A stretch of DNA of 64,000 nt from Heterotrichella gracilis. Its lineage: Eukaryota; Sar; Xanthophyceae; Tribonematales; Xanthonemataceae. The stretch covers positions 1 through 64,000 of the forward strand of contig JAULBX010027274.1 in NCBI GenBank assembly GCA_032358255.1. Direction: 5' to 3'. A model generated the notes under the pieces. It was not told the DNA's origin. It was given only the letters and a program-made list of their open reading frames with translations, and did not search any database. This document shows, in pieces, positions 199 through 64,000 of the stretch. A program made the position numbers and the translations under genes. Each line of letters begins with the position of its first letter. Position 1 is the stretch's first letter.

Positions 199-3100
199 GC
201 AGCCTGTGGCCCCACCCCTGGCAGCCCCCCACCCCCGAACCTCCACCCGCCGTCCGAAAGTACCTGCGCCACTGCGACCTCCTGTTCCCTCCCCTCTACA
301 TCTTATTGTACTCCCTCCTCTGCTGGGCCGCGCTGCTGCCCTTCTGGCTGCTGCTGGTGTTGGTGCCGCCCACCTTCCTGTTTGGGGCCATGTATGTGGT
401 GGTGAAAGGTGCGTGGAAACCGCTACTGAAAACCTGCACAAATATGGTGTTATTTTGTACTCCAAATGTTGAAATGCGTCCCTTGCTCACCATGACTGCT
501 TTCCAACAGTACAGCCACTGAGCAGTCAACAGGCATTTAGTCAAATAACTTGAATGGAAGTAAAAGCCCCTCCCCTCCCCCCACTTACATCGTGCAGGCC
601 AAGGCCTGCGCGCCCCCCAGATCCCCAGCTCCCGCCTCACCCTAGGCCTGACCCTAGCCATGGAGAGTGTGGGCATGTACCTCTACCTAGTGCTGGTCAT
701 GCCTGTGGTGGCTGACAGGTGGCTGTTCCACACGCTGTTCCTGGCGGGGGCGATGACCACGCTGGTGCTGCAGTACAGGTGGGTGGTGGCGGTGGTTCTG
801 CGGTGGTGGTGGTGGCGGTGGTGGTGATCACCTTGAACAAACCCTTGATGCTGAAATGCCAAAGCCCTGCCAAGGCAGGGCCTGTGCAAGGGTGGAAAGG
901 ACTTCTCCTTCCTGAGCCCCAAACCCTTGATGCAGAAAGCGTGTAAAACCCTAACCAAACCCCTGCTTTACCCTCCAGGAGCATCTCCATGAACCCCGGC
1001 TATGTGCCACTGCCCACCGAGGAAGGTGACAATGGGGAGTACATGATGCAGCCAAACGGAGACGAGGCGGCGACACCTGGCGATGGGTTTGGGGCGACCT
1101 CCTACTGCCACACCTGCTGCATACAACGCCCCTTGAGAGCCAAGCACTGCCCCTACTGCAACCGGTGAGTGGCCAAACTCTTGCCTGGGTGTTTTTGCAC
1201 ACTTGCCTAGGTTTCTCCACATCCTTGCTAAGGGCATTTTGGCAACAGCTCCTTTTGCTTGTTCACATGGGGGGTGATACACTGTACCATTGTGGGATGC
1301 CCTTGCTACCATAATATCACTGGAAGCAATTTTAGCAATTTTGATTGGCCTCCCACTCAAGTTCGACCGCCTCTGTACCTTTGTTTAGGGCTTTGCCATG
1401 CCATTGCTTAGGGTTTGCGAAACCTTCCTAGGGCAATTTCAGAAGTGCGTTCTTATCTTGCCACCCCCCTCCTCCCTTGCAGCTGCGTGCACAAGTTCGA
1501 CCACCACTGCCCCGTGATCAACAACTGCGTGGGCGAGCGCAACCAGCGCTCATTCGTGGCCATGACCTGCCTCATGGCTGCCTGCACATGCGCCCTGGTG
1601 TACATAGATGGGGTGTTCTGCTGGCGGGGGGCGGAGGGGGCGGGGGTGGTTGGGGCAGCAGAGGGGGTGGGGGTGGGCAGCGCGTGGCGGGTGGCGGGGT
1701 GGGCGGGCGCCACCTGCCCCGGGCTGCTGCTGTGGATGGTGACGGTGGTGCGTGTGCGGTGGGGGGTGGGGTGGAGGGGGGCGGGTACAGTGGAGGGGGG
1801 TGCACGGGGGCCCTTGTGTTGTGTGCAGGTGCCATCTGCCATGGGCCCGCAAATGGGCAGGCTTGAATTACTTATAACCTACATGTGCACCATGTCGCAT
1901 GCCTAGCTGAATGACCCAAAACAAATCCTAAAACGTCAAAAGAATCCCAGAAAATATGTCGTAAATGGAATCCCCCATTCCCCCCCCCGCAGCTGCCCAT
2001 CCTGTGTGGCCCACCTACCTGGGCCTGCGCTCCCTCTACTGCGTGGCGGGCAACCTCACCACAAACGAGTGGCTGCTGCACCGCAAATATGCCTATTTAA
2101 GTGACCAAAAACAATGAAAAAGAAGTCAATCAAAATGCCAAAACATTTCGTAACATATACCCCCCCATCCCCCCCTGGCAGCTGCCCATCCTGTGCGGCA
2201 CCACCTACCTTGGCCTGCGCTCGCTCTACTGTGTGGCGGGCAATCTCACAACCAATGAGTGGCTGCTGCACCATAAGTACGCCTACCTGAAAACCCCAGG
2301 CGAGGGTGAGCCCAGCGAGTTCTGGAACCCCTTTGACCGGGGCCCCGCCACCAACTGCCTCCAGTTCTGGTTCAACCACCCGCACCAGTGGGAGCCGCTG
2401 CTGGCAGTGGCGCTGCAGGTGAGAGGGTTTTTGGGGTGAGGGTTTCGGGTGCAGGCCGAGCTTTTCATGGCCCTATGAATGGAGTAGTATTGAACAGAGA
2501 GAGAGGAAAAAGCCTTCACTGCTGAAATGGGGCTAGCATCGCTGAATAATCTCACAATGAAGGGCTGAAGTGACCATTTACTTCACTGCATTCTGGTTTA
2601 TATTGTACCTCCCTGTTCCGGTCCTCACCCCCCCACCCCCCACCCCGCAGCGGTACCGCCAGCAAGGGCCTGCCTCCACCCCCTCCTTTTCCATCACCTC
2701 CCTTGTGCGACTGGAGGACAAGGGGAGGGCATGGCTGAGGGCCAGGCGGCAGGGGGGGAGGGGGAGGGGGGGCAGAGGGGAGGGAGGCTCGGGAGTGGAG
2801 GTGGGTGTGTTGGAGTGAGGGTTTGATGGACCTTCAGTTGGTCGGATGGAAATTATGGAGACCATCATTACCACACAAACACCATCCTTCCTTGCTGGAC
2901 GCCCCCCCTTTGTGGGCTTGAGTGCTCCCAAAATTGGTCGACAAGCACGGCGGGTGGCAACTGCCCCCACAACGCACAAAGTACTGTTCCCCTGCTGGTC
3001 CCCGCAACCCCACCCTAAACCCTGGTACCGCTTCCCTGCTGGGAGCCCCCATATGAGTGCAGGTCACACCAATGCCGTCCCCCTCTCCCCCCACCCACCT

Positions 3101-3273
3101 CCCACCCACAACCCCCCCCCGCACGCACTCCATCCCTGCCGAACCCCCCCTTGTGTGTGCAGGTGCCCCTGATGGCCAACGAGCACAGCGGCCAGCTGGC
3201 AACTCCCATGCCTGCCGGTGCAGACGAGGAGGTGGCGCTGCCCACCAGCCGGCCTGCAGGGGGTGGAGGGTGA
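199..3273 (+). CDS. DHHC-type protein S-palmitoyltransferase (5' partial)
   Basis: Zinc-finger DHHC acyltransferase, a membrane enzyme that transfers palmitate to cysteines of target proteins. Exons by frame continuity: 199-408, 598-778, 979-1164, 1483-1747, 2182-2418, 2651-2800, 3163-3273 (446 residues in the window; the first exon begins in mid-codon, so the true start lies upstream or in an unrecognised 5' exon). Visible parts: two hydrophobic N-terminal segments in exons 1-2, a Cys-rich lead-in in exon 3 (CHTCCIQRP), the catalytic DHHC core in exon 4 ([13 protein letters not shown]), two further membrane segments after it, and an NLTTNEW stretch in exon 5 matching the family TTxE motif. 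The C-terminus is Gly/Arg-rich and hydrophilic. The order TM-TM-DHHC-TM-TM is the family topology. Intron 4 carries a tandem copy of exon 5 (separate entry). The specific family member is not assignable. Confidence 0.85.
1911..2100 (+). repeat. Tandem duplicate of exon 5 edge plus intron tail (pseudo-exon)
   Basis: About 190 bases are repeated next to each other: 1911-2100 and 2101-2290. Both copies start with a CCAAAA-type A-rich stretch, pass through a pyrimidine tract and CAG acceptor, and then encode the start of the same exon (LPILCG...). The upstream copy lacks one base in the GGCACCACC segment, so it would shift the frame. Only the downstream copy continues in frame into the rest of exon 5, so it is the functional one. 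Confidence 0.9.
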
Positions 3274-3768
3274 TTGTGAATCAGCAGGAGGGGGAGGGAG
3301 TACGACTTTTTGAGCTTGTAGGCCGGCTCTGATGGGTTGTTTGCTGCGGCCATGGCTGTGGCTGTGGCTTTTCTATGACGTTGCAAGACATTCAGTGGGC
3401 GTACGTGCCACTGTAACCTCAGGCAAAGTGTGAATCATCCCAAGGTGTGGTTGATTCACTCCTTTGGCGTTGCTCATCCTAATGGAATATGAGTTGGTGT
3501 CACTTGTGGGGATTGGCATGGGTACACTCCAGGGATTTAAACCTCCGATGGGGGTCCCTGACAGAAAACGTCCCTAAAGTTGTAAACGAGTTGGCAATAA
3601 CCACGAGGCGGCTGCTTTGTCACGTTCATTCAGCACGCACTAACCCCTCCTTGCCCTCAGATCCACACAACTAAACTCGTTGCTACGTGCTTCAACGGTG
3701 AACCAGCTGTGGATAGCTTTAATACCGGCACGACCGCTTTTTCACACTAGCAGCTGCCCCATCCCCAC
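3274..3768. other. Intergenic / UTR region
   Basis: No gene recognised between the DHHC stop and the aminotransferase start. It presumably holds the 3' UTR of the first gene and the promoter/5' UTR of the second. An in-frame TAG at 3748 lies upstream of the aminotransferase ATG and fixes its start. Confidence 0.5.
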
Positions 3769-6700
3769 ATGGCCCTGGTGGGATCAAAAGCCTCCGCTTG
3801 CGGGGGGAGGCTCCTTAGGAGTGCATTTGCGCCAGCAGTTTTCGCGCAGTCCAGATCTGTTGCTTCCCCAGCACACTCCTCAGAGTCCCCATCCACGTCG
3901 TGGTTCAGCCATGTGGATGCAGCTCCAGCCGACCCCATCTTGGGAGTCACCACCAGGTTTAAGGAAGACACTAACCCCGAGAAGATGAACTTGGGCGTGG
4001 TAGGGATCCGATTTCAATCCTGGTTGCGCTGTCGTCTGGTTCAATTTTCCAAGTCTTGGAAGGGTACGACCTGCCATGTGGGCTTGTGCAGGGTGCATGG
4101 AGGAACGATGAAGGGAAGCCAGAGGTCCTTCGTGCACTGCGTAAGGCAGAGATGGCCATGGCTGGAGCGTTGGATATGGAGTAAGTAAAACCTGTAGGCT
4201 TTCCACGCTTAGTAGCAGATCGCCTCTGACCGGCAGCTAGACATGCAGCTCCGCAGCAATCGACGGTGCAACGTGACACGTGTTTCAAGCAGTTTCGGAG
4301 TTGGTACTAGCGACGCTGACGCAGTGGTGCTTTATGGGCGGTGTTGTTGGGTGCATACAGGAGCGTGGTGAAGCTGGTTTGGGTGCCGGTATGCAGCCGG
4401 CCGTCGATGGTGCAGCGAGTCGGCTCATCCACCCAGTCAATGCATGCATGCATCCTTGGCACCACTCAAGGCAGGTTACAACTCCGTTGCTGGTGTGCTA
4501 GTCAAGACGTGCTTGCTTTCATCAGTGTTGCACACTTGAAAAATAGAAGCGCGCAGGATCCTAGGCACCTAGCTTTCCCGCGTTTCCGCCTGGCTTTGTG
4601 CATGCTATCCTTTACAACCACTGCGAGCTGTGGCGAACCCCCTGTTCAGACCCTTATTGAAAGCAATACGCCGCACGAAAATCTGCTGCGCGCACTGTAC
4701 CGGTGCACCAAACACTTGTCGCTTTCTCAACGGACAGTGCTCACCAGCTTTCAGGGCAGGGTTGCTAGGCCAGGGTGGTGGGTGGTGGTGGGTGGGTGGT
4801 GGTGATGCGGTGGGTGATGGTGGTGCGGTGGGTGGTGGTTGGGTGTATCTGTGAGGGGCAGGAATGCTGTTGAACATTCCTCACCCTAACCTAGGGTTTT
4901 GTCAAAAGGTGTATGGCTTGGCTTTCATCCGGGCCAGGATGGTGCCTGCTGGAAAAGTGTTGAGTCAGCCTCGCTTTGGGCAATCCCTCAGAAACAAGGA
5001 AACCTTGTACTCATCACCTTGTATGCGCTATATATGCGTGCCTGTTGCTGCATGCAGTGCCTGCCTGGCCATACGGTATGGTGTTGCATCGTTGCAGCGA
5101 AACCTTGTACTCATCACCTTGTACTCATCACGTTTCCTGACGCCCCCCTTCCCCCCCCCTGCAGGTACCTCCCCACCGAGGGCCTGGCCACCCTGCGGCG
5201 GGGCCACCTGCACGTCACCTATGGCACCAATCAGGGGGAGCAGCTGTGGGCAGGAGGCAACACAGCCGTGCTGCAGGCAAGAATGACTAGGGTTTAGGGT
5301 TTATTATAAGGGTTCTGCTGGCCCGGGTGGCACTCACCTATGGTTCCAACCAGGGGGAGCAGCTGTGGGTGGAGGGCAACACAGCCGTGCTGCAGGCAAG
5401 GATGACTAGCGTTTAGGGCAAAGCTAGTAGAGTTCTTACATTGTACATTTCTGCTGGCCTTGTGGTGCGCTTTGGTAATTCGTTTGCCCAATGGCACGTG
5501 CACACGCTCATTCCCTTGGTCAACTGCAACAGAAACGGCTGCTTATCCGCGAAACCACAGGGGATGGCTTAGGCTTTGTTATTCATGCCCAACTTCCTAT
5601 TTACCCCTTCCTCCCTGCTGCAGGCGCTCTCCGGCACCGGTGCCCTGCGCCTGTTTGCCCAGTTCATGGCGCGCTACCTGCCCGGTGCTAGGGTATACAT
5701 CCCAGATCCTAGCTGGTCCAACCACCACAACATTTTCCGGGATGCGGGGGTCGAGCGGGTGCTGTACCGCTACTATAAGGGGGAGACTAAGGGGCTGGAC
5801 TTCGAGGGGATGATGGATGACCTGACGGTGCGTGGGTGGGGTGGGTTTGTTGGGGGCAGGAGTGCATGGTGACGATGGAATTGTGTAGTTGGTGTGTGAG
5901 TAGAATACCCTAGTCAATCACCAATCGCTGATCACATCCGTGCCATCTCACGTCCCCAAGGTGTCATTCAATGAAGGTACTGGGTCTATGACATACCCTC
6001 CCCCCCCTTTATGCAACACACTCATTCGTTTCTTCCCGCAACCAGGCGGCCCCTGAGGGCAGCGTCATCCTCCTCCACGCATGCGCACACAACCCACTGG
6101 ATTTTACCCAACCCCCGACCAGTGGACCCCACCCTCCCCTTGCTCCACACAATTTCTGCACGCGCACCCCATTGCACCCACTCACCCCCCACCCCTCCCC
6201 CACCCAGGCGGCCCCAGAGGGCAGCGTCATCCTCCTCCATGCATGCGCACACAACCCAACCGGGGTGGACCCCACCCCCGACCAGTGGACCCAGCTGTCG
6301 GCCCTGTGCGCCAGGCGACACCTCCTGCCCCTGTTCGACAGCGCATACCAGGGATTTGCGTCAGGGGATTTCGACGCCGACGCTTTTGGGATCCGGAAAT
6401 TCCTGGAGGACGGGCACAAGCCAGTGGTTGCTGCTTCGTTTGCCAAGAACATGGGGCTGTATGGGCAGCGCACGGGGGCGCTGAGCGTGGTGTGTGACAA
6501 CCCTACAGAGGCCTCGGCTGTGCAAAGCCAGATCAAGGTGAGTGGTGGCGGAATTTCCAAGAAACCCTAAGCCCTAAACCCTATGTTGGGTGATTGGAGC
6601 GGACAGATGGCAAAAATGATCCGGCTGTCCTTTGAGGGTTCTAAACCCTAAACCCTAAGCAAATGCTATCCTGGTCGTCTTCCAAAACCCTACAAGATAT

Positions 6701-7837
6701 GTGGTTCATGTACTCTGGCGTCCCCTTTCTGCTACACACAGCCCCAAGCAGACCCTAGTCGCTCACTACTTACCCTCCCTGTGCAGGCCATTGCTCGGGC
6801 CATGTACTCCAGCCCGCCCCTGTATGGTGCACAGCTGGCGTCTCGCCTCATCTGGGATCAGGAACTCAACGCCGAGTGGAAGCAGGTGAGCAATCTCGAG
6901 TGGAGAACCCTTGAGTGTGGTTCAGCATTGGTGTTGAAGGAGATGGGTGTTGACCGCTTAAGGTTCACGATAATCCTTAAGCCCATCTCAAAAGGTGCAT
7001 GGCGCCTTTTTGGGCCAGATCAGTTGGTGGGGAAGCCCTAGAAATTTCTTAAAAACCCTTACAGCCCCGCTCCACAAGTAATTATTATTCACACATCCAT
7101 GCACCCATCCTTGCACAGGAGGTGAAGACGTGGGCAGACACCATTGCCGGCCGCCGCACCGCGCTCCGCTCCGCCCTGGAGGCGGTGGGCAGCCCCCACA
7201 GCTGGCGCCACATCACCGACCAGATTGGCATGTTCTGCTACAGTGGCCTCACCAAGGACCAGGTAAAATTCTTGTGCAAACCCTTCTGTCAAAACCCTTA
7301 TGTATAAACCCTTGCCCACATCAGTTTATTTATCGTTGTGAGTGCCCTTGCCCAGACCTTTGTCCGAAAGTAATGAACTTTGTAGTGTATCCGCCTAAAG
7401 CAAAACGCCTTGTGCACAATCCTAGTGGGTACCCTTGCCCAAACCCTGGCGTAAACCCTCCTGTATCCATCTTGCCCCAATTTGATTACCTTCCCCCCCT
7501 TGCAGTGTGTGCGCCTTGAGCGCGACTACAGCATCAACCCGACCAGAAACCCTTGTGTAACCCCCTTGTATTACCCTGTCCAAAACCTTATTAATTTCCA
7601 CCCCTTGCAATGCGTGCGCCTCGAGCGCGACTATAGCATCTACCTGACCAGCAACCCTTGTGTAAACCCCTTCTATTACCCTGTCCAAAACCTCATTAAT
7701 TTCACCCCTTGCAGTGCGTGCGCCTTGAGCGCGACTACAGCATCTACCTGACCAGCAACGGCCGCATCTCGATGGCGGGATTCTCAGAGCCACAGGCGCC
7801 AAAGCTGGCTGAGGCAATCCACAAGGTCACCACGTGA
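3769..7837 (+). CDS. Aspartate aminotransferase, organelle-targeted
   Basis: PLP-dependent class I aminotransferase (aspartate + 2-oxoglutarate to oxaloacetate + glutamate). Eight exons: 3769-3999, 4092-4180, 5165-5276, 5624-5827, 6208-6537, 6787-6885, 7119-7262, 7715-7837; they join without a break into 443 residues. Motifs: N-terminal Arg/Ser/Ala-rich targeting peptide (about 40 residues) before [53 protein letters not shown]-binding lysine 292 in [22 protein letters not shown] near the end. Length and motif order match mitochondrial/plastid AAT; which organelle is not decided by the sequence. Intron 3 has a GC donor (CTGCAG|GCAAG). Introns 3, 4 and 7 and the 3' flank contain copies of neighbouring exon edges. 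Confidence 0.95.
5333..5412 (+). repeat. Intronic copy of aminotransferase exon 3 end with GC donor
   Basis: Near-copy of 5211-5290 (end of exon 3 and start of intron 3), including the GC splice donor and the following GATGACTAG-type sequence. TTTAGGG motifs follow both copies (5289-5300 and 5412-5418). Confidence 0.9.
6043..6126 (+). repeat. Intronic copy of aminotransferase exon 5 start
   Basis: Copy of the acceptor CAG and first 75-80 bases of exon 5 (6205-6285), encoding [17 protein letters not shown], then diverging. The downstream copy continues in frame into the long exon 5; the upstream one runs into non-coding sequence. Confidence 0.9.
7500..7708 (+). repeat. Two intronic copies of aminotransferase exon 8 start (104-105 bp period)
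   Basis: Units begin at 7500, 7605 and 7709. Each has pyrimidine tract, acceptor position, [10 protein letters not shown] coding start and, in the first two, the same AACCCTTGTGTAA-type tail. The acceptor is CAG in units 1 and 3 and CAA in unit 2. Only unit 3 goes on to the stop codon at 7835-7837. Confidence 0.93.
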
Positions 7838-8180
7838 TGTGGCCACACGGTGATGTGTTCAGGAGCAATGGGATGCGCATAGCGTGCGATCAAGGGGGGC
7901 TGGATGCTTGTGGCATGCACTAAGGGGCAGTTGGATGCTCGGGGCGTGGGGTAAACTGGGTGGAGATGCTCGTAGCATGCGGTTAGCAAATTCATGCTCA
8001 TGCGCATGCTGGCTGAGGCCATTCACAAGGTCACCATGTGAGCCACACGGGTGAATGGTGTGCAATGTTGAGCGTTCAGATGCGCATGAGGCTTGACCAG
8101 GAGCAGTTGGCTGCCCATGGCGTGCAATACGGTGCGGTGGGGTACTCACAGCGTGCGACACCCTGCGCTACGGTTGTGAG
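7838..8180 (+). repeat. Copy of gene end plus degenerate 40-bp-scale repeats
   Basis: 8005-8050 repeats the last codons, stop and first 3' UTR bases of the aminotransferase (7803-7850: CTGGCTGAGGC, then CACAAGGTCACC). Around it a motif of the type GGATGCTCGTGGCATGC recurs about six times between 7880 and 8155 with drift. No gene is seen. Confidence 0.75.
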
Positions 8181-9687: not shown

Positions 9688-10112
9688 TCAAGGTTGCCCC
9701 AGCTCGTGTTGTGCCTCCCCTGTTGCGCATCTCCCTGGGCCAGCTGCTTCCGCACATGCCGCAACCAGAAGCGGTGTGGTGCTGCTGGCATGGACCAACC
9801 CCTCTGCCTCCCCCGTCACACCACCCCCTCGGCCATCATCACATGCAGCCACCAGCAGCGGGGTGGTGCTGCTGGCATGAACCAACCATTCAGGCTCCCC
9901 TGTGGCATCCCCCCCTGTGCCAGAGACTTACTCCCCTGTGTCACCACCAGAGCCCCCACCCCCACACTCGCCCACCAGCAGCCGGGCGGTGCTGCTCGCG
10001 TGGACCAACCCAATGTCTGATGCACCAGGCGTAGCAGGTACCTCTGTGGATCCACCGCCAGTTTGCGCATCAGAGGGCGAGGCTGACAATCCAGAACCTG
10101 CACACAGGTCCA
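9688..10112 (-). repeat. Degenerate coding-like tandem repeat
   Basis: Read on the minus strand, the phrase LVHASSTTPLLVAAC appears three times (about 10020, 9885 and 9800) followed by Gly/Glu-rich linkers. The first copy ends at a GTAAGT donor-like site. Units differ in frame relative to each other. This could be alternative 3' exons of the CD36-like gene (Ser/Gly-rich tail from 10092) or a decayed array; not resolvable by eye. Confidence 0.5.
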
Positions 10113-10237
10113 AACAATGAATGGAAAAAAGCAGGCCCTGTTTGTCTTGAGCCAGAAAGGACTCATTGAGGGTTAGGGCTTAGTTTTGGGGTGCCCAGGG
10201 CTATCCGTGCACATCTTGCACACACCAGTCACACCTG

Positions 10238-10590
10238 CATTGTGCACACCGCAACCCTCCAGCCCCTTGCCCCTCCCCTGCTCAATGGATATGGTGACAG
10301 ACACCGAACCATCGCCACTGGCGCCCACTGTCCCCTCGTTGCTGCTGAAGGGCGGCGCTTGCACAGGCGCTATCAGCATGTCGTCGAGGTTCATTGGGAG
10401 GGGGGCAGGTTGCTGGGGGCCGACCCCAGGGCCCTCCTGCAGAACATGCAACATATGGAGGTCATTCATGCTTAGTACAAGGGGACCACAGCGGTGGGTG
10501 CCCTCTCCCAGGTCCATTCTGCAAGATGTGCACATTTGGGTCATTGATGCCATTTTGGGGCAACAATTTGGTGTACAAGGTGTTGCCACC
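10238..10590 (-). other. Possible additional C-terminal exon of the CD36-like gene
   Basis: After an acceptor-like CTGCAG near 10440 (minus strand) an open frame encodes a low-complexity acidic/proline tail (EGPGVGPQQPAPLPMN...). Upstream, 10500-10560 repeats the same acceptor neighbourhood (GINDPNVHILQNGPG versus GMNDLHMLHVLQEGPG), the same border-duplication habit seen elsewhere. If a GTGGGG donor near 10694 is used, the membrane protein would run into this tail; otherwise it stops at 10657. Confidence 0.3.
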
Positions 10591-10656
10591 TTAAAGCATG
10601 GAATTCATGCATAATATTGATCTTGAAGAAGTTCTTGACCACATTTAATTGTGCAG

Positions 10657-42684: not shown

Positions 42685-42689
42685 TTGTG

Positions 42690-49190: not shown

Positions 49191-49199
49191 GGCAAAGTG

Positions 49200-50770: not shown

Positions 50771-53700
50771 CTACCCCGGCCGCACCAGCTTGTCCGCCCC
50801 CGCCACCACCTCCGCGCGCACGATGACGTCCCCGTTTTGCAGGTACGGCACCAAATCCACCCCTTGCACCACGTACCCAAACACGCCAAAGGTGCCCTCG
50901 TCAAAGGCAAGCCCCGCCAGCCCCGCCTGCTGGCGATCGAATTTGTACACAAAAAACTCGTCCCCCGACAGGTATTGGTCCGCCAGGGGCCCCGGGATGT
51001 GTGCCATGGAGACTGCTCCGAAGATTGAGAGGGGGAGGACCGGGAGTTCGCCTGATTGCACATCCAGGGCTGACTTGTAAGTGGGCTCAAAGTCGCCCAT
51101 GGTCAGGATCTCCAGTGGGACCAGCTTGGCTGCGGATGTAGGGTTGATAGGGTTTAGGGCCTGGCCGGATGCAGGGTTTAGGGTTTAAGAGATCTCAAGG
51201 GGGACCAGCTTGGCTGCGGGGGAATGTAACAGCAGGTTTAGAATATAAACTTCAAATTCAGGGGGTGAAAAAGCGGTCGATGGTTTTGGGGTGAGGGGTT
51301 TTGGTCACCACAGAGGGTTTGGTTTAGGGTTATTAAAGTTACTGGGGTACGGCAGGTGTGACTCAAGGGTGGATAACTTCAACATGTGTGCTGTTCATAT
51401 GCAACTTCCACACAATGCGGCATCCCAACTAACCCACATGCGGCATCCTCCCTGGCACCCTTTATCAAACCCCTCCATCCACCCTCCACCCCCCACCTTC
51501 TGGGTCCAGCTCCCGTGCCTTTGCAAACACCGATGCGTAGTTCACCTCAAGCACACGCCCGTTGTACACACCATCCAACACGTTGGCGGCAAAGTTGCCT
51601 GCAGAGAGGGGCATAGAGGGTAAGTATCATGCTCATTGCGCACCAATCCCAGGTCTTGTACAAAACAGAGAGCCAAAACACAAACAGAAAAAAGCCAATC
51701 AAATACAAGACTGCTTGCACAGCAATATTGGAATAATATAACATAATGGTATGATATAATGGTATACCGATTTGAATACCAATGGTACTGAGGCAGTGAT
51801 CATGCATGTGTTAAGTGCAATGCTACCTGCCGTGACGGGTGCTGAATACCCGTCCAGCACTATGCGCAGGACGGCCGATTGCTGGGGCCCGTCACCACTG
51901 CCGTCGAAGAACGCAAGGGACCCGTCTGGGCGCTCAATGGTGAGCTGGACGGTGGCGCGGCCTGCAAGGTGGTGGGTGGTGGTGGTGGTGGTGGGAATGT
52001 GGGGAGTCTGTGTGAGGCAATGGGTGATGGATGGCAGCTGGACCGTGCGTAGCCTACCGTGGAGTGGTGGGTGCCATGGTGTGGGTACTGGATGTGGGTA
52101 GCGGTGGTGGTTGTGATGCATGGCTTTGGCACGCCTGCATGCGCTACCCCCAAATTTTAATTACCCATCCCCCCCATGTGCACCACCTCCCCTCTTCCCA
52201 CCCACCAGTGAGCAGCGGGGATTGTCGGAACTCCTTGGGGATGATGAAGGGGATCCCGGGGGCCTGCATCAACTCGAGCTCGGCGATCTGCTGCAGCAGC
52301 CCCGCCACCCTGCGGGAAGTCCTATCCGCGTCCTTGGCTGCCACGTCCCCCTGCAGCCTCACCAGGCCCCCTTGGATGCCTGTCAGCAGCTCCTGACCTG
52401 CCTCGCGCTGAGCTGGCGGCACGCCGTACATCATCTGCAGATACGGGGTTTAGGGTTAAAATGTAGGGTTTTAGATGAAGGATTTTATAACCTTCACCTA
52501 AAGTGAAGGTACTAGTTTTTTTACTCCAGCACTAGGGTCTTAGGTGCCTGGCGACGGTCCATCATCTTGTGTGAAGGTACACAAGGGGAATAAGGTAAAA
52601 GAGAGCAGCCTTGTGGTGGGTCATGCGGTGGGTCATGCAGTGGGTTGTGGCGCCATGCGGTGGATGGCACGGTAGGTGGTGGTGTGTGCGTACCTTTGCA
52701 TCCTGCTGCGTTGTGCCCAGCTGCCGCCACCTGGCCGCCATGGGCTGCAGAGGTTCGCATGGGGTGGGGCCCAGGCAGTGGGGCGAGTGGGACGGTGGTG
52801 CATGCGGAGGGTGGTGTGGTGCAGGCGGTGGGTGGTGCAGCGTGCGCCTACCTTTGCATCCTGCTGCGCTGTACTCAACGCTGCCGCCACATCTGCTGCC
52901 ATGTTCGGCCAGGGCTTGCGCTGGGGGATGCGCAGCTTGAACGCCACAGACTGCACCATGGGGGGGCAAATTAGGGTTTGGGGTTTAGGGCTTGCGCTTA
53001 GCATGCGCAGCTGGAAGGCCACAGGAGGGGGGTGGGGTGCACACATCATTTGCACTTGGGATAAAATTACAAAGAAATCACAAAGGAGGTCAAGAGGCAC
53101 AGCTTGTAAAAACACATCGTCTTTTGCCATCATGAATTCAAGAAATGAAACCATGCAATTACCAAGGCGGATGTGGTACGTGTAGGGTTTAGTTACATGC
53201 ATTCCAGCAATACAGCCAGATTAGCAGTCAGTCTTGGACATGCGGCGCCACGCAGCTCTATCCTGGAACAGTTTGAACCATTTATTGATCCCACGCGACT
53301 TGAGATCCTGCTGGAGAAGTCGAGTGTAGGGTTTAGGGTTTTCAGAAGGGTTTTACTGATGCACGCACCTCCAGTTGCCGCTGGATGGTGCGCACATCCT
53401 CGTTGAAAGCAGGTATGGAGCGCCTGAGGGCCGCATCGACGCTGCGAGGGATCTGGGCATTGGGCGAGTTGAGCAGCGCGTGCGCGCTGGGGGGTACCGC
53501 CACCCCCCCCCCCGCCACCCCCATGCACAACTGGAGGGCAGCTAGAGTGGAGGCCAGGGCTGTCTGAATGGGGTGCGTGGGGGGGTGGCATGGTGGTGGG
53601 TGTGGTGGGGTGTGGCTGGGTGTGGAGGGTGGTGGCTGTGTGGTGGGGTGGTGGTGGCTGTGTGGCGGGGGCAGCCGGGGTTGTGGGTGGTGGCTGCGGC

Positions 53701-54521: not shown

Positions 54522-56702
54522 GGAAATGGCAGAGTGGGCTGACTGGGAAGAGGGTTGGATGAGAGTGGTGCAGCAGCTGGCTTAATCCCTACACACCCTT
54601 ATAACTAGGACCCAATTACAGTGAGACCCCTGGGTGATGATGAACGGCTGGAGAGAGATAGGAGCTGTACCAGAATAGAAAGCTGGGGGCTTGAGCAGGC
54701 AGAAGGTGGCAAAATAACACGAGGTGCAAAGGGTGACAGGACAACCTCCGAACCCAAAGTCTATCTCCAGCACACCTGGGGGGTAGAGGGTGGGCAGTGG
54801 GGTGAAGCTGGGACATAGTGTGACACTTTGGGAAAGCCAGCAACAGACACAAACACATTAAAAGCAAAAGGTTATGCCACTGCCCTAGCGTAACGCTCTA
54901 ACCGTCCCAGCTTGATGCGTGCCCCAGACAGCACTGCCACACAAGGCATGCCATCACCTTGCGCATGCCAATCCCAACCCTAATCTCGCGGAGTGGCGCA
55001 GGACGGATACGAAATGGCAGTCCAAGTATCAGCGCCGAAAACACCTACTGCATGCGTACAGCACCGCCAAATGCTTGCCCAACTTGATCTGGGCGATAGG
55101 CATGGCATGGCGGACACCTTACCTAGGGTGAAGCTTCTCTTCTCAACTCGGTGCCTATTCAAGCAACGCCTCTTTGCAGGGATTTTCCTGAACTTCACCA
55201 GCTACCGATTCCTTTAACGTCTGGTGATAGCAGTGAAACTGCTGGCCTGGATAAGCCTTTGCCTTTATGGAAAATGGCCCATAGGTATTGGACAGGAATT
55301 TCAGGGGGGTTCAAACGGGGATGAATTTTGCTGAGCTGGATCACAGGGCAGGTTTGCATCTCCGAAAGGTTCTCGACAGCCTTTTTGCACAGGTGACGCA
55401 GCCTGCAAAAGACAGTGCGCACATGTCCAGCAGCAAGCTATCTCACCTGCAGTAGCATGGGCTACGCATGATCGGGTACAGCGCTGCGTGGGATAAGAGG
55501 CACGCCTGTAACCACTTCAGCATCGCGAGCTATTGGATGGTGCGAGCACCTGGTGAGTCACCACACGTTTGGCGCGGCGGGCGCGGTTTCCCACCCCACT
55601 CAGCCGCTGTTTTGCTCGATTGTCCGTTACTGGGCCTACCGTACAGCGGCATTGTTGTATTGTTGTGCGGCAAGCGGTGTTGGACAACAAGGCCATTTTA
55701 AATTTACGGGTGAAACATGACAAGTGCTGTTGACCGTAGCGCAGTAGACACGACCGCGGGTGCACTCCTATTTGACAACATACCGGTAGGCACTGTTGCC
55801 CCTCTCGCCTGTAGCCGTCTGTATTCATCTTCACCCGAGACGTTTTCTTGCTAGTGGCGCCTGCAGCTTGTCTAGGCCCAAAGTGAGTGTGCGTTTCCAA
55901 CCTATTTGAACTCCGGCATAAACGTGGGATTCGCTGTGTCCGTCCATCTTCAGTAATACCCACACGAGGTGTAGGCTTTATCCGAAGACGACTTTGGGCT
56001 GCATGTCACTGGATGCCAGACACCGTATATTCTCGCCAACGGCCACAAACTAATGCTGAGGTGCTGTATGCTGTGCAGAAGATGTTATTCCCTGGAGAAA
56101 TTCTGGTTTTCTTTACAAGCGCCTGACCCTTGCTCCTGCTCGGGAGCTTCTCAGCAATTCCATCGCTATGGGCTCACTCTCTGCCTTTGAGAACCTTTTT
56201 GGGTCCAGAGGACAGGCGTTGTGATGAAGGCAATGCCACGCTCAACGGTCTGCTGCACTGTTGAAGCAGACTGGCCGGTGGTCTACTGAACAGTACCGTT
56301 AGCAGAGACAGTGGTCCTCGTGGTACCACTGACCTTGGCCTAGAGCTGGACCCGCTATGGCATCTGCAGCATTTTCTCCCTTGCTACCAGCTTCACCAGT
56401 GTACAGTATCAGGTACGCAGGGCCAAGTGTAAAGTACTGAACATTCTAGACTGTGTTATGACCACACATGTTGGTTTATAACAACTTAAAAGTCATTGTG
56501 GAGTTTGTGCTATTATCTGCGTTTGGTTTGGTCCAACCTGGGCTTGCGCTTCCAGACTTATTTTGCAACTCCTGCGGGACACTACAGCACAGCACCAAAG
56601 CACCCATCGCTGAGACTACCCCTGTTTTGCAGCCCCGTGGCCGAGGCGCTACCCCCACAGTACCAGCTGTTCCAAGCGCGGCCTCCAACCTCCGCCCAAG
56701 CC
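54522..56702. other. Divergent intergenic region
   Basis: Contains the promoters of the small membrane protein (minus) and the Q-rich protein (plus). No exon chain or RNA gene recognised. An open frame continues upstream of 56703 to about 56496, so the first exon of the Q-rich gene may start earlier. Confidence 0.5.
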
Positions 56703-59700
56703 ATGACAGCCACAGCGTCCATCCCACTCTTTGCTGCTGCGCACCACACCCAGGGCAGCAGCCCCCGCCACCAGGCCGGTATGGGCGCGCAGTTTGATGG
56801 GCTTTGTACACTACAGTCTTCCTACCAGCAGGACCAGCGCGGCACACAGAGTGTCCTTGACTTTTTCCAAGGCGCCAACCTGGCGCCAGTCAGGGTAGAG
56901 CCCGCCATGGTCGACAATGCAGCAGCTTCTCAGCACCCGCTTCCTTCTTTTCTCAGCAACTACGAAAACGTGCAATATGGTACCCAGATTTTGCAGCAAC
57001 AGCAGCAGCAGCAGCAGACTGGCTTTGAGGCCAAACCTGGTGGCTGGAGCAGCTTGAACGCTCCAATGGACAATGCATTCCAGCTCGACTGGGGTGCACC
57101 AGCCGACCAGGAACCAAATGAATACCACCTCTTTTCCAAGCTCAGCGATCTGCCCATTACAGCGGATCAACACCCCGGGAAGGGCCATTTTTTGAGCGCC
57201 GCTTCCCAATTCTACCCGCCACTCCCAACCAGCCCGGACGTCTGCGGTAGCAACAACCTCCCACCATTGGACAACTGCAGCGCGCACCATGCCTCCACCC
57301 CCGCCCTGCCTCTGGAGCAGGATTTGGCCCTGCAGGCGCCAGGCACCGCATGGTCCCTGTGGACTCGAAATGCACCCCTGGGAAACAGGGACGGCCCCAT
57401 GGGGTTTAGGTCGCTACCCGCCTCCCCACTCCATGCCCCACTGGGGCCCATGCCGAAGCCGAGGCACACCACACTGGGGCGAGGAGGGTTGGCAAGGAGT
57501 GCACCGGTTGCGCAGCAGCAGGTGCAGGGGGATGAACTGGGGGGAGGGTTGGGTGGTCAGCCAGGATTGGAGGGGCATGTGGAGGCTGTTGCCCTACCAC
57601 CACTTAGCGCAAGGTCGCTGCCTGGGAGTGGCCCGACTCTGCACCAGCCCACAATGCCACAGCAGCAAGGTACGTGGGACATGGTCATGAGGGCATATTT
57701 CATAGGTGCATGTGCTATGTCACCGTGTTGCTGGTTCACTGACTGCACTGTTAAATCCCTGTAGATAGTAGGGCCACCACCTCACCCTGTAGCTGGGCAG
57801 AAGCAAGTGTACCAGAAGCTGCAACTGTCGCGCTGGACTGGAACAGGCTAATAATAGAGATATTTGCTTGCAGGTGCAAAGCTGAGCCCCACCACCCCAA
57901 CCCCCGCCCCAGCCGCTCAGCCAGAGGATCTCAGCCACGCGGAATTCCTGGAGGGCCTATTTGAGGGCTTGCTGTCGACACGGATCGCACGCTGCTGCGA
58001 CCTAATCCCCAGCCCTGAGCCGCACCCTGCACCGCCAGCCAGCAAACCCCAGCCGCAGGCACGCAGCACCTCCCCTCGGGTCCCAGTGGCGCCCCCCACA
58101 GCCGAGCAGCAAGAGGACGCAGCGCAGCTGCTGCAGCATGGGGCGCAGCCTGCGCCCCGCCTGCCTCAGACGGCACTGGAGCAGCTGCGCGCGCGCACAG
58201 CAACCACTCCGCGTGCAGGATGCACCAATGGGAGCCCTCCCCAGCCAGCGCAGGCGGGTAGTGGTGGAACCCATGGGGATGACCGCCAGCCAGCGGCGGC
58301 GTCATCTAGCGGCAGAGGAAGGGGGTTGGGAACGCCTGTTTCCCTGCCCCGCGACACGTTTGACAGCCTCTTTGCGCAGCTTCCTACGTCTTTGTCGCTG
58401 CTTGATGGGCCCGGCTCCCCCCGCAGCATTCTTGACCCGCTGGCGGGTAGCGACCAGGGGCGCGGGGTGGTGGGGGTGGTGCGCCGGTTGCCGCCCCCAC
58501 CGGCAGCGGAGGGGTGTGTGATCGGAGGGGTGGCCGAGGGTGATGGGCAGGGAATGGGGGCCAGCAATGACGACCTTGCGAGGTTTGATGGGGGGGTGGA
58601 TCGCCTGTCGGGGGGTGGGGATGATGCGATCATGGCCTGTTGTTTGGAGGGCGGAGGCGTGCGGTGCGGGGTGGCGCAGGGCTGTGGTAGTGAGGCGTCT
58701 GGCATTGGGGCTGGTGGGGAGTTGGTGGGGGATCAGGGAGAGTCGCAGGGCAGCTGCCGTGTGCAGCATGGCATGCATGATGGGGACGAGCAGGAGCAGC
58801 AGTGGCGGCAGCAGGTGCCAGGCATGCAGGAGGTACGCTCTCTGCCAGCAATTCTCAGTCAAGTGGCGCTACTTGGTGTGATTAGCATGATGCATGTGTG
58901 CCAGCCATGCAAGCACGCTGGCCACCGGAACATACCTCCCACCCACACTATGGTAGTCATGCGCAGTGCTCCTGTTGCCCGCACCCCCACGGCATGCTCA
59001 TCTTGACCTCGCCCTTGCTAATGTGGTTCAGGTGGACACCCCCCTGGCCGACGCCCTGCAGCTGCTGCACGCCTGCGGGGGAGAGGAGTCGGCAGAGGGC
59101 AATGGGGGCGCTGGCCAGGCCATGCTTGACCACTTGCTGTGGATCATGCAGCAGCTGGGGGGGCAGGTGGGTGGGCGGAGGGATAGGGTGGGTGGGTGCG
59201 ATGGGGTAGGTCATTGACTGTTTGCAGGCAGAGTGTGGGGTGAGTTGATTTGTGCCCATATGCAGTGCAGGTGGCTGGGGTGAACATGCATTTGGATGTG
59301 CGTCGCTGTGGATGTGGGCGGGGGTAGGCAGTGAATGTATTGTAATATGTAATTTAATCTGTTTTCACATAAATTTCAGTTTCATTTTGGATTTATATCG
59401 CGAACGTTGCTCCCCTTGGTGCAGGAGTTGATGCAGCTGCTGGAGTGGTGCAGCGCAGAGGGCATGGCACCCCCCACACAGGTGGTGCAGGCAGCGGTGG
59501 GGGGCCTGGCGGCGCCTGGGGCCCTTGCGCCGACTGGGGCAATGGGTGCCCTGCGGCTGCTGGAGCTGGTGGAGGGATGGGGGGTGGAGGGTGAGGCGCT
59601 GTGGGAGGTGCTGCCGGCGATTGAGGAGGTGCTGGAGGTGAGCGAGGGGGCTGTTTGTGCGTGTGGGCAATGCAGTGGGTTGCGTCACCTGGGTTGTGGT

Positions 59701-60966
59701 AACTCCCACCACATGCTGCCCAGACTGGAGAACAAAAGCGGCAACTATGTCCCCACCCACCCACGGTACACCCTTGCTTGTGTACAAATCCCACACCCGT
59801 GCTTGTGTGCGACAAACCTTCCTTGCCTTTTGTGCTGACACAACACCCATCCAGCATTCAGCAGCGCACGTGTCCACCCTTGGTCTGACACCTGCCCGCT
59901 CCATCCAACCTGGTGTTTACGTCATGGGCCATGTGTCACTGCATGTGCAGGAGGCCATGCGGCGCACATGCGAGGGCCCCGCCCCGCCCGCCTGGCTGCA
60001 CGCACGCCACCTGTCGCCGCTGCGTCGCAGACTGCGCCGCCTCCACCTGGCAGCGCACGGCACCCGGAGCTACGTCAACACGTACGTGTACGGCTTTGCC
60101 GGGGGGTTCATGGAATCGCACCGCAGCCATTTTGGATGTAGAGGGGGGCGTGCCAGCGGGCGGGGGAGGCGTATGGGTAATGAGCAGTTTCAGCAGCAGC
60201 AGGAGGGTGTGGTTTCCAGGGCGGGGTGTTGAATGGGCAGCGGGCAATGGCCCATGCGGGGATATGGAGCTGGGCAGCCCCGAGAGGGGAGGCATGTGGA
60301 AAGGGATGCAGCGGCAGCAGCAGGGCGTTGTTTCCAGGGCAGGTGTTGAGCGGTACAAGGTTGATGGGAGCATCTGGGCCTTCTATGCGTGGGTTGTTGC
60401 CTGCTGGTTCATGGTATGCACTGCGGGTATGGGGCAAAGGAGGGACATGTGGGCAGGAAACATTTTCAGCAGCAGCAGCAGCCTGAGGATGTGGTTGCCA
60501 GGCTTAGGAGTTGAATGGGCAGCGGCAACAGGCCCATGAGGCGCATTGGCGGCCTCCCAATGTGGCAGAGTCTCTGCTGCAGAGGCAGGTGTGCGGTTCC
60601 ATGGCCCTTATTGCAGCCGCTGGGCACCAGGGGTATGGTGCTAACCACTGGCTTGGGGCAGGAGAGGCTGGCGCGTGTGGGCGGGGTGCAATGGGAGTTG
60701 GTGTACCGTGGCTATGGCTGCCAGGACCATGTGGTGAGGGGGTGGAGGCGATGGCCCAAATGTGCGAGTGGGTTTACCTGGTGGGTTTGTGGCATCACCT
60801 AGCATTCATGGGGGCTGCAGGGCGTGGGCTGGGACAGGAGCAGGCCAAGAGGTTTGCATTTGAAGTTGGGCTAGGGGCAGAGCCGGCGCCAGCTGTAGAT
60901 ATGGGTGAATGGCTGTGTGCAAGTGGGTTTGGAAAGCTGGCGAGGCGTTTGGGCGCTGCATGGTGA
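56703..60966 (+). CDS. Unidentified Gln/Gly/Pro-rich protein
   Basis: Exons with matching phases: 56703-57669, 57874-58832, 59032-59166, 59425-59637, then 59951 to about 60085 (donor uncertain), 60662-60733 and 60838-60966. The first ATG in the long open frame is 56703, though the frame is open from 56496. Exons 1-2 are low complexity with polyQ at 56995-57017 and Gly/Ser stretches; islands such as HAEFLEGLFEGLL, DTFDSLFAQLPTSLSLLDG and LLDHLLWIMQQL-like helices look structured. Exons 3-5 encode leucine-rich helices (ELMQLLEWCSAEGM, GALRLLELVEGWGV), and HLSPLRRRLRRLHLAAHGTRSYVNTYVYG may be a nucleic-acid-binding patch. The tail RGYGCQDHV then EQAKRFAFEVGLG..FGKLARRLG ends at 60966. The family was not recognised; a regulatory or RNA-associated role is conceivable but not shown. 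Confidence 0.55.
60170..60545 (+). repeat. Three degenerate CAG-rich units of about 120-150 bp
   Basis: Units near 60185-60255, 60305-60360 and 60460-60535 share (CAG)3-5, then GGTGTGGTTTCCAGGGC...GTTGAATGGGCAGCGGGCAA-like text. They lie between exon 5 and the next recognised exon of the Q-rich gene, so they may be copies of an exon edge or alternative exons. Confidence 0.8.
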
Positions 60967-61760
60967 CGAGGTTGGTTGTAGCAGTAGCGGATAGGACTGA
61001 GGGAGGTGCCAGGAGGACTTGTATCAGGTGGACTAGAATGGGTCTAAGTCAGTCCCCCTGCTTATGTACTACAGTCCTGGGTGTGACCATTATGCTTGTA
61101 CAGATTGCGTAGGCTACGTAAACTAGTGTGACCAGATATGGCTGAGTAGATGCTTGTGTATACCTTGGCTTGCTGTGGGTATTGCTGCAGAAAGCAGTAG
61201 CAGTATCGAGACAGGCAAGGTAGTGGTGTCAAAGTGGCCCATTGGTCGTTTGGGGGCCATGTAGGGTCATGACCAGGGGCCAGGGTGGAAGCCGATGTTT
61301 GTAGTTACAATCTCAATTTTGCACAAAGGAAAACAAAAACAGACGCAGCGTGATGTAGCATAGGTTCTAGAAAATACACAGCAGGTAGAGCTAGAAGACT
61401 AGCGGGAGGTTGGATGTTTATTGTATATGGCAGCGGTACAGTGTTTGTTTCATCACCGTTTCCTTTGGACCAAAGTCCCCGACTAGTTTAAAACGTGGTG
61501 GGATTTATGTACATATTTTGATGAAGCGTGTGGGCCTTGGCGCTAGCCAGCCTTACTAATTGTGTTATCATGGTAGTGGATATTATCATATTATATTATC
61601 TTATTAAGGCCTTCGTTGTTTGACCGGAAATCGCGTGTAAGTGGGATGAGAAATGGTGCTGCACAGGACCTAGGTGAGCTCAGCATCAAAACCCATTCAA
61701 CACCCTAGAAAAGCCTTCGGAGGATTTGAGTAATCCCCATGTACTCCCCTGGTGGGGACG
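60757..61760 (+). repeat. About 1 kb tandem duplication, copy A (gene tail)
   Basis: Covers the last exon of the Q-rich gene and about 800 bases of 3' flank. Copy B is 61857-62895, offset about 1.1 kb. Shared landmarks: GAGGTTTGCAT, GCAAGTGGG, CCCCTGCTTATGTA, GCTTGTACAGATT, CAGCGGTACA, CATCACCGTTTC, AAGCCTTCGGA. Confidence 0.92.
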
Positions 61761-61836
61761 CAGGAATATTTTAAATCTTTCTGGAATCCCACCAAGGAAC
61801 ACTCCCCCTGGTGGGGACGCAGGAATATTTTAATTC
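61747..61836. repeat. 58-bp tandem pair
   Basis: CCTGGTGGGGACGCAGGAATATTTTAA occurs at 61749 and 61807, between copies A and B of the 1-kb duplication. Confidence 0.95.
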
Positions 61837-61856
61837 TTTGTGCAACCTGGGGCCGT

Positions 61857-62895
61857 CCCATGTGCAAGTCCTTACCCGGTGGGTTTGTGGCACCGCAGGG
61901 GGGGGAGCGGGCTGGGATGGGGATATGTGGGGAGGTTTGCATATGAAGCTTGGGCTAGGGACAGCGCCAGCGCCAGCTGTTGGTATGGGTGGATGGCTCT
62001 GTGCAAGTGGGGTTGGGCAGCTGGTGAGGTGTGGGGCGCTGCATGGAGTTGGTTGTAGCGGTAGCATGTAGGACAGGGCGGTATCTGGATGTATATCATG
62101 GGGGCTTAGAGTAGTTATTTAGTAGTTTATTCTATCTAGTCCCCTGCTTATGTATTACAATCCTGGTTGTGATCATTATGTAGTATGCTTGTACAGATTT
62201 CGTAGACCAGTGCGACCAGATTTGGCTAACCAGATGCTTGCACCTTGGCTCACGTGGTTCGGCTGGTAGTGGTGCAGAACTGGTAGCAATCTCAAGACAC
62301 GGGAGGTAGTGGTGGCTAATGGCGCATTGGTCAGTTTGCCGCCTTTTGAGGTATGACCAGGGGACAGAGTGTAAGCTGTCGTGTGTAGTAATATTCCCAG
62401 TTTTGCAGAAAAGAAAAGAAAAATAGACGCAGAGTGAGAATATGCAGGTAGAGCTAGAAGACTAGCAGCAGGTGGCTGCTATTTTGGAAGATGTTCGACT
62501 AGGGTCAGACCATAGACTCTACGGCAGCGGTACAATGTTGTTTTCATCACCGTTTCTTTTGGTCCTGGACAAGACGTGGTGGGATTGATGTACATCTTGT
62601 TATGAAGCGTGGGGGGGCTTGGCGCGATGCCAGCCTTGATATTTCCCTTATTTGGTAGTGGATAAGGCCTTGGTTTCTTTGATTCGGAAACTGCTTGTAT
62701 GTGAGATGAGAAATTGGTGTGCATGCGCAGGACCCAGGCTAAGCCTGGCAGGCTTGGCCCAATTGCATTGATGGTGTGCAAAATCTGGGCCGCCCAATTT
62801 GAAATTTGGATTGGATGGGCAAAACCCCGTCCAAAACCCTAGAGAAGCCTTCGGAAGATTTCAATAATCCCTTCTACTCCCCCTGCTGTGATGGG
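61857..62895 (+). repeat. About 1 kb tandem duplication, copy B (gene tail)
   Basis: Diverged second copy of 60757-61760 with indels. The coding tail is recognisable (CASGVGQLVR versus CASGFGKLARR) but the upstream exon acceptor is altered (GCACCGCAGGGGGG), so copy B probably encodes nothing. Confidence 0.9.
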
Positions 62896-63511
62896 AACGC
62901 ACGTCTCGCGTGACATTTTGGGCCTGTCCAACTGAAACGTATGCATGCTTTGCATAACCCATCGAAACTGGCGTGCAACGACCTCTATCTGTGTCTCCGT
63001 ACAGTGTGCGAGTCTCCCTTGTGTCTGCATGTTAACTGCACGCGTTGTGGGTCGCCCTGGCCCAGAGTCTGGGAACTGTCCAACTGCAGTGCGATCTTTC
63101 GGGATCTAGATCGCGTTGCAAACAAGCCCACGTGTTCCTTGGTATAGTAAGAGCCTCTTTTGTCATTTGGCGTCTGTATTCTTGTTGTCTTAGACCGCTG
63201 CGGGAGCTGGACCCAGTTGGAATTGGGGCACATCCCACATTGTTGTCACGACACACAGTTGACGGGAACTGCCCACTTGGCACCCCTCAGCTTGCTGCAA
63301 ATCAGGCTTTACAAGCAATATCCGCACGTTGGGACACAGTGCTATCGCCACCTTCAGCGTCCACTCCCCTTGAGGATACTGGGAGCTCCAGTCCAATGTG
63401 AAAGCACTTCACCTGCTCCAATAAAAACAGCCTGTGCAACAACAGCAACGACACACACGGGCGTGGTGGGGAAGCCATAGTCCCATGGTATAGCTCCACC
63501 AGCGAAGCACC
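62896..63511. promoter_or_regulatory. Upstream region of the PHM-like gene
   Basis: No coding chain recognised; presumably promoter and 5' UTR. No defined element could be assigned. Confidence 0.4.
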
Positions 63512-64000
63512 ATGGTCCGATTGCGCTGCCCAGCATCGATGGCAACCGGGTGGGTTGTGCTGGTGGCAGCCTGGGTGGCCCTCTCCTCCCCCATGGAAAT
63601 CCATGGCAGCACCGAAGGCATTGACGAGCTGGTGACAGTCAACGCCACGATGCCTCCGTTCGTGGTCCCAGGGGCGGAGCCCTACTTGTGCACAGCTGTC
63701 AGCCTGCCAGACGAAACCTTCAAGCTGGTTGGGATCAAGGCCCTTGCAGAGCAGGCGACAGTCCATCACATCCTCCTGTTTGGTAGGTGATTTATGGCCT
63801 TAAGGGTCTCGGTGGAGGTAGGGCAGTGGCTGGGTATTGGTGGGAAGAGGCATTACCTTGACTGCTGCCAGGTATCCAGTAATATGGTTCCATGGCATTG
63901 GGTTACTGCAAGCCATGTGGGGAACCGTCAAGCTGGTGGGTATCAAGGCGATGGTGGAGCAGCCACACTGCATCACTTCCTCTTATTTGGTAAGTGCACA
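63512..64000 (+). CDS. Copper type II, ascorbate-dependent monooxygenase (PHM-like), 5' part
   Basis: Only the first exon is inside the window: 63512-63782 (90 codons plus one base), followed by a GTAGGT donor. Hydrophobic signal peptide (GWVVLVAAWVALSS), then MPPFVVPGAEPYLCTAVSLP and ATVHHILLFG: the VHHxLLFG motif supplies the two histidines of the first copper site in peptidylglycine hydroxylating monooxygenase and dopamine hydroxylase relatives. It is therefore probably a secreted or secretory-pathway C-terminal amidating/hydroxylating enzyme. Green algae are known to have PHM. The start at 63512 gives a proper signal peptide; the second ATG is 63539. The remainder lies outside. Confidence 0.78.
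63905..63995 (+). repeat. Intronic copy of PHM-like exon 1 end
   Basis: GGAACCGTCAAGCTGGTGGGTATCAAGGC...CATCACTTCCTCTTATTTGGTAAGTG repeats 63712-63787, donor included. The copy has a better donor (GTAAGT) than the original (GTAGGT) but is disrupted in the middle. Confidence 0.93.

Follow-up and report, generated by a model that had tools for sequence, protein, structure and literature searches.

The 64-kb window analyzed here, namely positions 1 to 64,000 of the forward strand of contig JAULBX010027274.1 from Heterotrichella gracilis (Xanthophyceae), carries strong copies of exon edges, hereafter decoys, in the introns next to those exons. A hand tally of a masked self-comparison placed them at 19 splice boundaries in ten genes and, with the weaker copies included, the number given in an initial annotation of this DNA (at least 25 copies in ten genes) was about right. 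The copies are real and ordinary in kind; judged from this single window, their number is unusual. They are probably best explained as ordinary local duplications produced by break repair, which survived where splicing removes one of the two copies; a process directed at splice junctions is not needed to account for them.

Self-comparison with blastn (E ≤ 1e-3) returned 42 same-strand pairs less than 4 kb apart, whereas inverted pairs were absent at this range. When telomere-like and simple repeats were masked, the same-strand pairs of at least 40 bits numbered 39, of which 38 were local (<1.5 kb), and inverted pairs were again absent. An ungapped scan within 1.5 kb detected 57 pairs in direct and 0 in inverted orientation, in agreement with the earlier description of the copies as always local and in the same orientation. 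With a single non-local pair among the 39, no dispersed family, Introner-like or transposable, was detected in the window, and the initial annotation is supported in that the copies do not resemble exon shuffling or a transposon. In a direct test, 19 of 156 alignments of an exon edge with its adjacent intron reached a score of 32, as against 2 of 3495 when the intron belonged to another gene and 0 of 1056 when it was a non-adjacent one of the same gene. A second test, thresholded at the 99th percentile of other-gene pairs of exon edge and intron, detected upstream-edge copies in 10 of the 78 introns and downstream-edge copies in 13, with about 0.8 expected for each.

Fifteen of these 19 exon-edge matches start within 1 nucleotide (nt) of the boundary, and for this reason a model in which random exon pieces were mainly copied in by templated insertion was rejected; the coverage of exons by copies declines away from the boundary to reach zero from 120 nt onward. 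The other four start 4, 8, 13 and 35 nt into the exon. For CD36 exon 12 (4 nt) and GT61 exon 4 (13 nt) a longer alignment extends beyond the splice site; for CDCA7-like exon 4 (8 nt) and the EME1-like exon 9 donor (35 nt) no longer alignment reaching the splice site was found. A few copies thus lack the splice site despite the boundary anchoring, and they also include that of GT61 exon 7, which ends 4 nt inside the exon, and the second GT61 exon 3 decoy (36982-37020), which ends inside an exon whose end lies at 37074; the inclusion of the splice site reported earlier holds for most copies and fails for these four. Nor are the copies centered on the boundary as had been stated, the blocks being mainly exonic with an intron part of at most 25 nt in 13 of 19 (hand tally from the self-blastn plus the masked run, the value for EME1-like exon 6 coming from the latter). 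In most decoy alignments the used side included no more than about 25 nt of intron, so intron extensions were taken from the same two comparisons.

The plus strand of the window was read in its entirety and the minus strand in three stretches. Judged by its letters alone, the DNA appears to be nuclear and of green-algal type. Spliced gene models built on splice motifs comprise 12 loci and 78 introns (mean length 314 nt, median 278 nt), with spliced frames free of internal stops at all loci except the one called G9. The initial CYP38 model contained two stops and its second donor was changed; since frame-keeping guided the choice of models, open frames are partly dependent evidence. Pfam support above cut-off was obtained for the aminotransferase (AAT), DHHC, zf-4CXXC_R1 (CDCA7-like), GT61, CYP38 and CD36 genes, and residues 44-442 of AAT are co-linear with a solved aspartate aminotransferase structure. 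The names PAT1 and PHM have sub-threshold Pfam support only, and a Pfam search gave no support for the label EME1. We use PAT1 and CDCA7 as presumed names, whereas EME1 and PHM are labels taken over from the initial annotation. Exon numbers follow the models built here and may differ from the earlier numbering.

Of each pair listed here, the edge called used is the one presumed to be spliced. On the plus strand, acceptor-side copies were found at DHHC exon 5 (decoy 1972-2095, used edge 2162-2285), AAT exon 5 (decoy 6034-6129, used 6196-6292), AAT exon 8 (7485-7759, with decoys from 7496 and 7585 and used edge 7690-7759), CDCA7-like exon 6 (33195-33387, decoy 33245-33287, used 33345-33387) and G9b (decoys 47929-47994 and 48096-48142, used 48184-48249). 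Donor-side copies on this strand lie at AAT exon 3, which has a GC-type donor (used 5210-5299, decoy 5330-5418), GT61 exon 3 (36982-37376; used 36992-37079, decoy 37148-37235, exon-interior copy 37331-37376), GT61 exon 4 (used 37524-37631, decoy 37824-37931, its donor GT lost), GT61 exon 5 (used 38314-38383, decoy 38420-38490), G8 exon 3 (used 42083-42136, decoy 42152-42205) and PHM-like exon 1 (63715-63996; used 63715-63789, decoy 63923-63996); the G9a exon end at 46455-46501 recurs at 46656-46702. The minus strand carries acceptor-side copies at CD36 exon 12 (used 10886-10956, decoys 11026-11090 and 11190-11244), EME1-like exons 13 (used 23320-23382, decoy 23432-23493), 10 (used 24928-25005, decoy 25131-25208), 9 (used 25635-25686, decoy 25737-25788) and 6 (27265-27478; used 27265-27297, decoys 27342-27374 and 27434-27466) and CYP38 exon 8 (used 51107-51135, decoy 51191-51219), and a donor-side copy at CYP38 exon 4 (used 52827-52903, decoy 52671-52742, within 52671-53024). 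More than one decoy was found at 5 of the 19 strong boundaries, and two further boundaries seem by eye to be of this kind. Weaker copies were detected at the CYP38 exon 4 acceptor (52911-52949 with 52987-53024, minus strand), GT61 exons 6 and 7, EME1-like exons 4/5, CDCA7-like exon 4 and the EME1-like exon 9 donor.

We infer the following origin for these copies. Error-prone break repair would repeatedly create short local duplications anywhere in the genome, with copies 69-300 nt apart and sometimes with unrelated spacer DNA between them. Two main types would survive within genes, namely duplications contained in an intron and duplications crossing one splice boundary, the latter because splicing to the exon-side copy would restore the old mRNA, leaving the other copy to turn into intron. 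Intron-only copies would fade first, as both decay, and boundary copies would stay recognizable because one of the two is protected coding sequence. Introns dotted with worn exon edges would be the outcome, together with intron growth.

Random placement goes far in accounting for the apparent preference for boundaries. We simulated random tandem units of the observed periods, placed in the gene models where the mRNA was recoverable, aged and then detected by alignment; G9 and PHM were excluded from the simulations and included in the observed tally, and simulated boundary events with less than 20 nt of exon were dropped in the final simulation. The simulated boundary share of detected intragenic events was 0.58-0.62 and the observed share, 17 of 22, was not significantly higher (p 0.08-0.19); this tally omits the masked or gapped boundary events at EME1-like exon 13 and G8 exon 3 and the intron-only repeats at 26283, 28252 and 46907, and adding these five gives 19 of 27 at a boundary. 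Because gene structure, selection and detection bias yield nearly the observed share, neither the contrast with random intron positions drawn in the initial annotation nor the recurrent process duplicating splice junctions that it proposed is upheld. Local duplications are moreover not restricted to splice boundaries. The stop-codon end of AAT (7804-7850, plus strand) has a copy at 8008-8050, 204 nt away and downstream of the gene, with tails homologous across about 150 nt; intron-only pairs occur at 4999-5123 (25 identical bp, 100 nt apart) and, in the ungapped scan, at 13795, 25444 and 45992 besides 4999/5099; one in-frame 15-nt repeat lies within a PAT1 exon; and duplications without a splice site also occur between genes, as in the non-genic duplication of about 1.1 kb at 60774-62882.

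The last of these served to measure the ratio of indels to substitutions, which was 0.25-0.72 depending on gap penalties. Tandem duplication followed by substitution-dominated decay was rejected, as 24% of boundary blocks would be expected to have a short intron side and 13 of 19 have one; indel-rich noncoding evolution moves the simulation nearer to the observations. The ages of the events are consistent with the earlier fading of intron-only copies, since ≥95% identity is reached by 2 of 17 boundary events as against 4 of 5 confined to an intron (p=0.009; p=0.003 at 97%), that is, intron-only events are mostly young and boundary events mostly old. AAT exon 5 was classed as young by one ungapped sub-block, its exon being 90% alike overall, and five second decoys were omitted from the age tests and from the codon position-3 tests described below, in which denominators were about one third of exon sites.

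If the duplicated unit was continuous, the noncoding tails beyond each copy should also match. Such homology was found for 10 of 22 pairs (p ≤0.015), and in a stricter test it was clear in 5 of 23 and weak in 5. The tails match at DHHC exon 5, where a blastn block joins 1899-2095 to 2089-2285, and the AAT exon 8 copies form a regular three-copy array whose last spacer is 94% alike to the expected tail. In the EME1-like exon 10 spacer homology to the expected tail was not clear (p=0.75 in the stricter test, p=0.07 in the other), and the AAT exon 5 spacer is unlike the expected tail. Where tails could be aligned, 17-25% of sites differ and gaps are many, with about 16% expected at the decoy rate. 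Tandem and spaced duplications thus seem both to be present.

Several observations weigh against break-repair duplication followed by selection as outlined above. The spacer has no clear match to the expected tail in 12 of 22 pairs, and at GT61 exon 5 all 45 of 45 exonic nt are identical while the tails, a simple G/T-rich repeat, differ at 9 of 54 sites and by several gaps. An intron side of at most 25 nt, observed in 13 of 19, was simulated in 0.36-0.50 of cases (p 0.007-0.11 by setting), leaving a mild excess of exon-weighted copies that the random placement model does not account for. The age contrast is weaker when boundary events are compared with all non-boundary events (p=0.049 at 95% identity and 0.06 at 97%). 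Divergence at codon position 3 is more even over events than a steady build-up predicts (chi2 29.8, 22 degrees of freedom; P=0.025 if ages are uniform), an evenness that a burst or diverged haplotypes might account for. Lastly, the DHHC exon 5 decoy, with 10 synonymous and 1 nonsynonymous differences, is unlike a neutral decoy.

The excess of exon-weighted copies is one of the two observations that would favor a process directed at splice junctions, for instance through breaks at transcribed splice sites, which would copy the exon edge together with its splice site into the intron; the other is the start of 15 of 19 matches within 1 nt of the boundary. Such anchoring is also predicted by selection on boundary-crossing units, however, and the share of events at boundaries does not significantly exceed that of random placement, young events lie mostly away from boundaries, and there are copies of a stop-codon region and in intergenic DNA as well, all of which makes this process improbable.

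An out-of-register junction between diverged haplotypes or parental genomes, which would make the difference between copies older than the duplication, would fit the even position-3 divergence, the exons that are alike with tails often unlike, as between diverged alleles, and the mostly synonymous differences at DHHC exon 5. We nevertheless regard this as very unlikely, given the multi-copy arrays, the several decoys whose exonic part contains gaps, the roughly equal numbers of nonsynonymous and synonymous differences overall, and the complete identity of the exonic part at GT61 exon 5 while other pairs are near 80%.

Telomere-type repeats are abundant in these introns, in which TTTAGGG/CCCTAAA heptamers in all rotations number 392 (about 22 expected from shuffles), as compared with 70 in intergenic DNA (about 17 expected) and 12 in exons (about 5.5 expected); 40 of the 78 introns contain at least one. 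Degenerate islands of such repeats are found throughout the introns, for example at 27394-27427 and 37115-37139, and also at 48867-48925. Within 60 nt of acceptors, two islands are in TTTAGGG sense and 17 in CCCTAAA sense; along introns, island orientation gave a weak signal only (p=0.11). Telomere-like DNA lies in the spacers of AAT exon 3, EME1-like exon 6, GT61 exon 3, G8 exon 3 and CYP38 exon 8. It covers 13.8% of spacers (21 of 24 tested) as against 6.0% of the introns that hold them (p=0.0004) and 5.6% of the introns in those genes (p=0.0008), and 15 of 52 islands lie between direct repeats as against 12% at control sites (score ≥30, p=0.0014). An array outside exons at 48846-48948 is flanked by identical 25-bp direct repeats (48846-48870 and 48924-48948). 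These enrichments would be expected if the main source of the copies was the healing of breaks with a telomere-like patch and a duplicated flank, later decayed. Per intron, however, the link is absent, a copy being present in 11 of 38 introns with telomere heptamers and in 7 of 37 without (p=0.42), and on this ground the idea that these repeats caused all the events was rejected; many spacers lack such repeats, and the telomere-like DNA may predate the duplication. Telomere-type healing is accordingly a highly improbable main source of the copies. A broader proposal, that genic breaks in this lineage are often healed by telomere-type repeats plus a duplicated flank, and that this is a major source of added intron length and occasionally creates an intron, we hold to be doubtful; on this reading, CDCA7-like intron 5 would still carry a copy of the unsplit exon 5-exon 6 sequence between telomere-like blocks. 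No title on telomeric repeats combined with introns in an alga was found in a search for which most subscription papers lay outside reach.

Decoys that serve as alternative or regulatory (poison) exons under selection would be expected to keep their splice signals, and 20 of 26 retain the splice dinucleotide (hand tally, with EME1-like exon 13 scored as AG-keeping although its AG sits one base later). That retention equally matches the prediction of drift. The distance between decoy and used splice site is a multiple of 3 in 10 of 26 decoys, with 8.7 expected, so there is no frame preference; block offsets had at first appeared rich in multiples of 3, and frame-keeping duplication was rejected when splice-equivalent distances did not bear this out. 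Use of the decoy would add an open in-frame peptide in 3 of 26 cases (AAT exon 5, EME1-like exon 9 and, by extrapolation, the CYP38 exon 4 acceptor), the other 23 being out of frame or stopped, and the earlier statement that only one copy of each set keeps the reading frame is thereby borne out for most decoys and contradicted by these three. Exonic identity over 28 alignments is 87.7%; differences at codon positions 1, 2 and 3 number 49, 32 and 91, and the codons that differ comprise 72 synonymous and 73 nonsynonymous ones. One free and one constrained copy should give roughly 1:1:2 over codon positions, and because the pattern is near this ratio, with change at position 3 slightly above it, the decoys appear roughly neutral. 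Overall, the decoys do not show the frame and coding constraint expected of mutually exclusive or alternative exons, although the synonymous pattern of DHHC exon 5 is an exception that would favor function, and a functional role under selection is most improbable. False local duplications from the joining of contigs or haplotypes during assembly, which short and local copies could suggest, are scarcely credible in a window devoid of N, with multi-copy arrays, widely varying divergence and marks of decay.

Intron growth by short tandem duplication, one of the two outcomes raised in the initial annotation, fits the data, since introns with a copy are longer than the others (median 417.5 vs 243 nt, p=3e-6), a difference that is in part mechanical. 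The other outcome, intron gain, is suggested at CDCA7-like intron 5 only. About 14 nt of the end of exon 5 directly abut the start of exon 6 in the decoy of this intron, near telomere-like blocks, and a duplication predating the intron could have left such a fused copy. Fused copies of this kind were found in 1 of 78 introns; three others have 6-9 nt that may reflect a likeness between exon end and intron end.

The copies are unevenly spread over genes. No boundary copy, strong or weaker, was found in PAT1 or G11, and PAT1 (16301-20659), CD36 (9928-15765) and G11 (56633-60141) together have a boundary copy in 1 of 28 introns, the remaining genes in 17 of 47 (p=0.0015, or p=0.08 when the comparison is confined to introns of at least 200 nt); only 3 of these 28 introns contain telomere-like islands. 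The C-terminal coding end of CD36 has degenerate self-repeats that run past the stop codon (9712-10017). G9 (44683-48835) includes a piece of P-loop ATPase with sub-threshold Pfam matches, its modeled exons do not join into one open frame, and it is perhaps a pseudogene or a wrong model. By eye, a dispersed repeat is common to a G9 intron region (about 46725-46800) and a CYP38 intron (about 53188-53260). The models require a GC donor at four introns (5277 and, on the minus strand, 15432, 28102 and 54380). One scan of viral contigs with the aminotransferase as query gave no match.

If break-repair duplication followed by selection is correct, introns would record past local duplications, one copy of each being held by coding constraint, and such a record would allow the rate, size and fate of duplications and their share in intron growth to be measured. 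It would also call for caution, as copies seem clustered at splice sites because survival and visibility favor those sites. If telomere-type repeats mark repair sites, this genome would make it possible to test whether telomere healing contributes sequence to introns.

Introners are intron-forming insertions with green algae among their reported hosts (PMC9860276); here, no dispersed family was detected in the window and the copies derive from the neighboring exon. New Daphnia introns contain internal direct repeats, read as marks of staggered-break repair and intron lengthening, a likeness to the present case, but the exon-intron repeats described there span 4-12 bp as compared with 23-100 nt of exon edge here (PMC4202315). 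Direct repeats of 4-30 bp near splice sites, described for 213 introns from many taxa, are likewise at exon-intron borders and tied to break repair (PMC11782384); those reported here are longer and concern a subset of introns. At breaks healed with telomeric repeats in mammals, target duplications were reported at 6 of 130 rodent and 4 of 25 primate loci (PMC2246262), which resembles our case in that repeats of telomere type mark sites of proposed repair, in some instances beside a duplicated target, and differs from it in that empty sites are known there, whereas here the insertions are undated and the repeats degenerate. The nearest proven parallel found is the potato RdRp gene, in which an intron was gained via a tandem duplication across an intron-exon boundary (PMC4974935), a single dated case of proven gain as opposed to the many undated copies of this window, most of them without sign of gain. 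Break repair gives rise to tandem and partially tandem duplications (Vaughn and Bennetzen 2014, as described in PMC7407515), and fill-in by Pol alpha-primase takes place at break ends (PMC8355091). The events described in that work are young or induced and their empty sites are known, in contrast with the old copies judged here from one sequence, but the duplications they leave are likewise short, local and direct, with or without inserted DNA.

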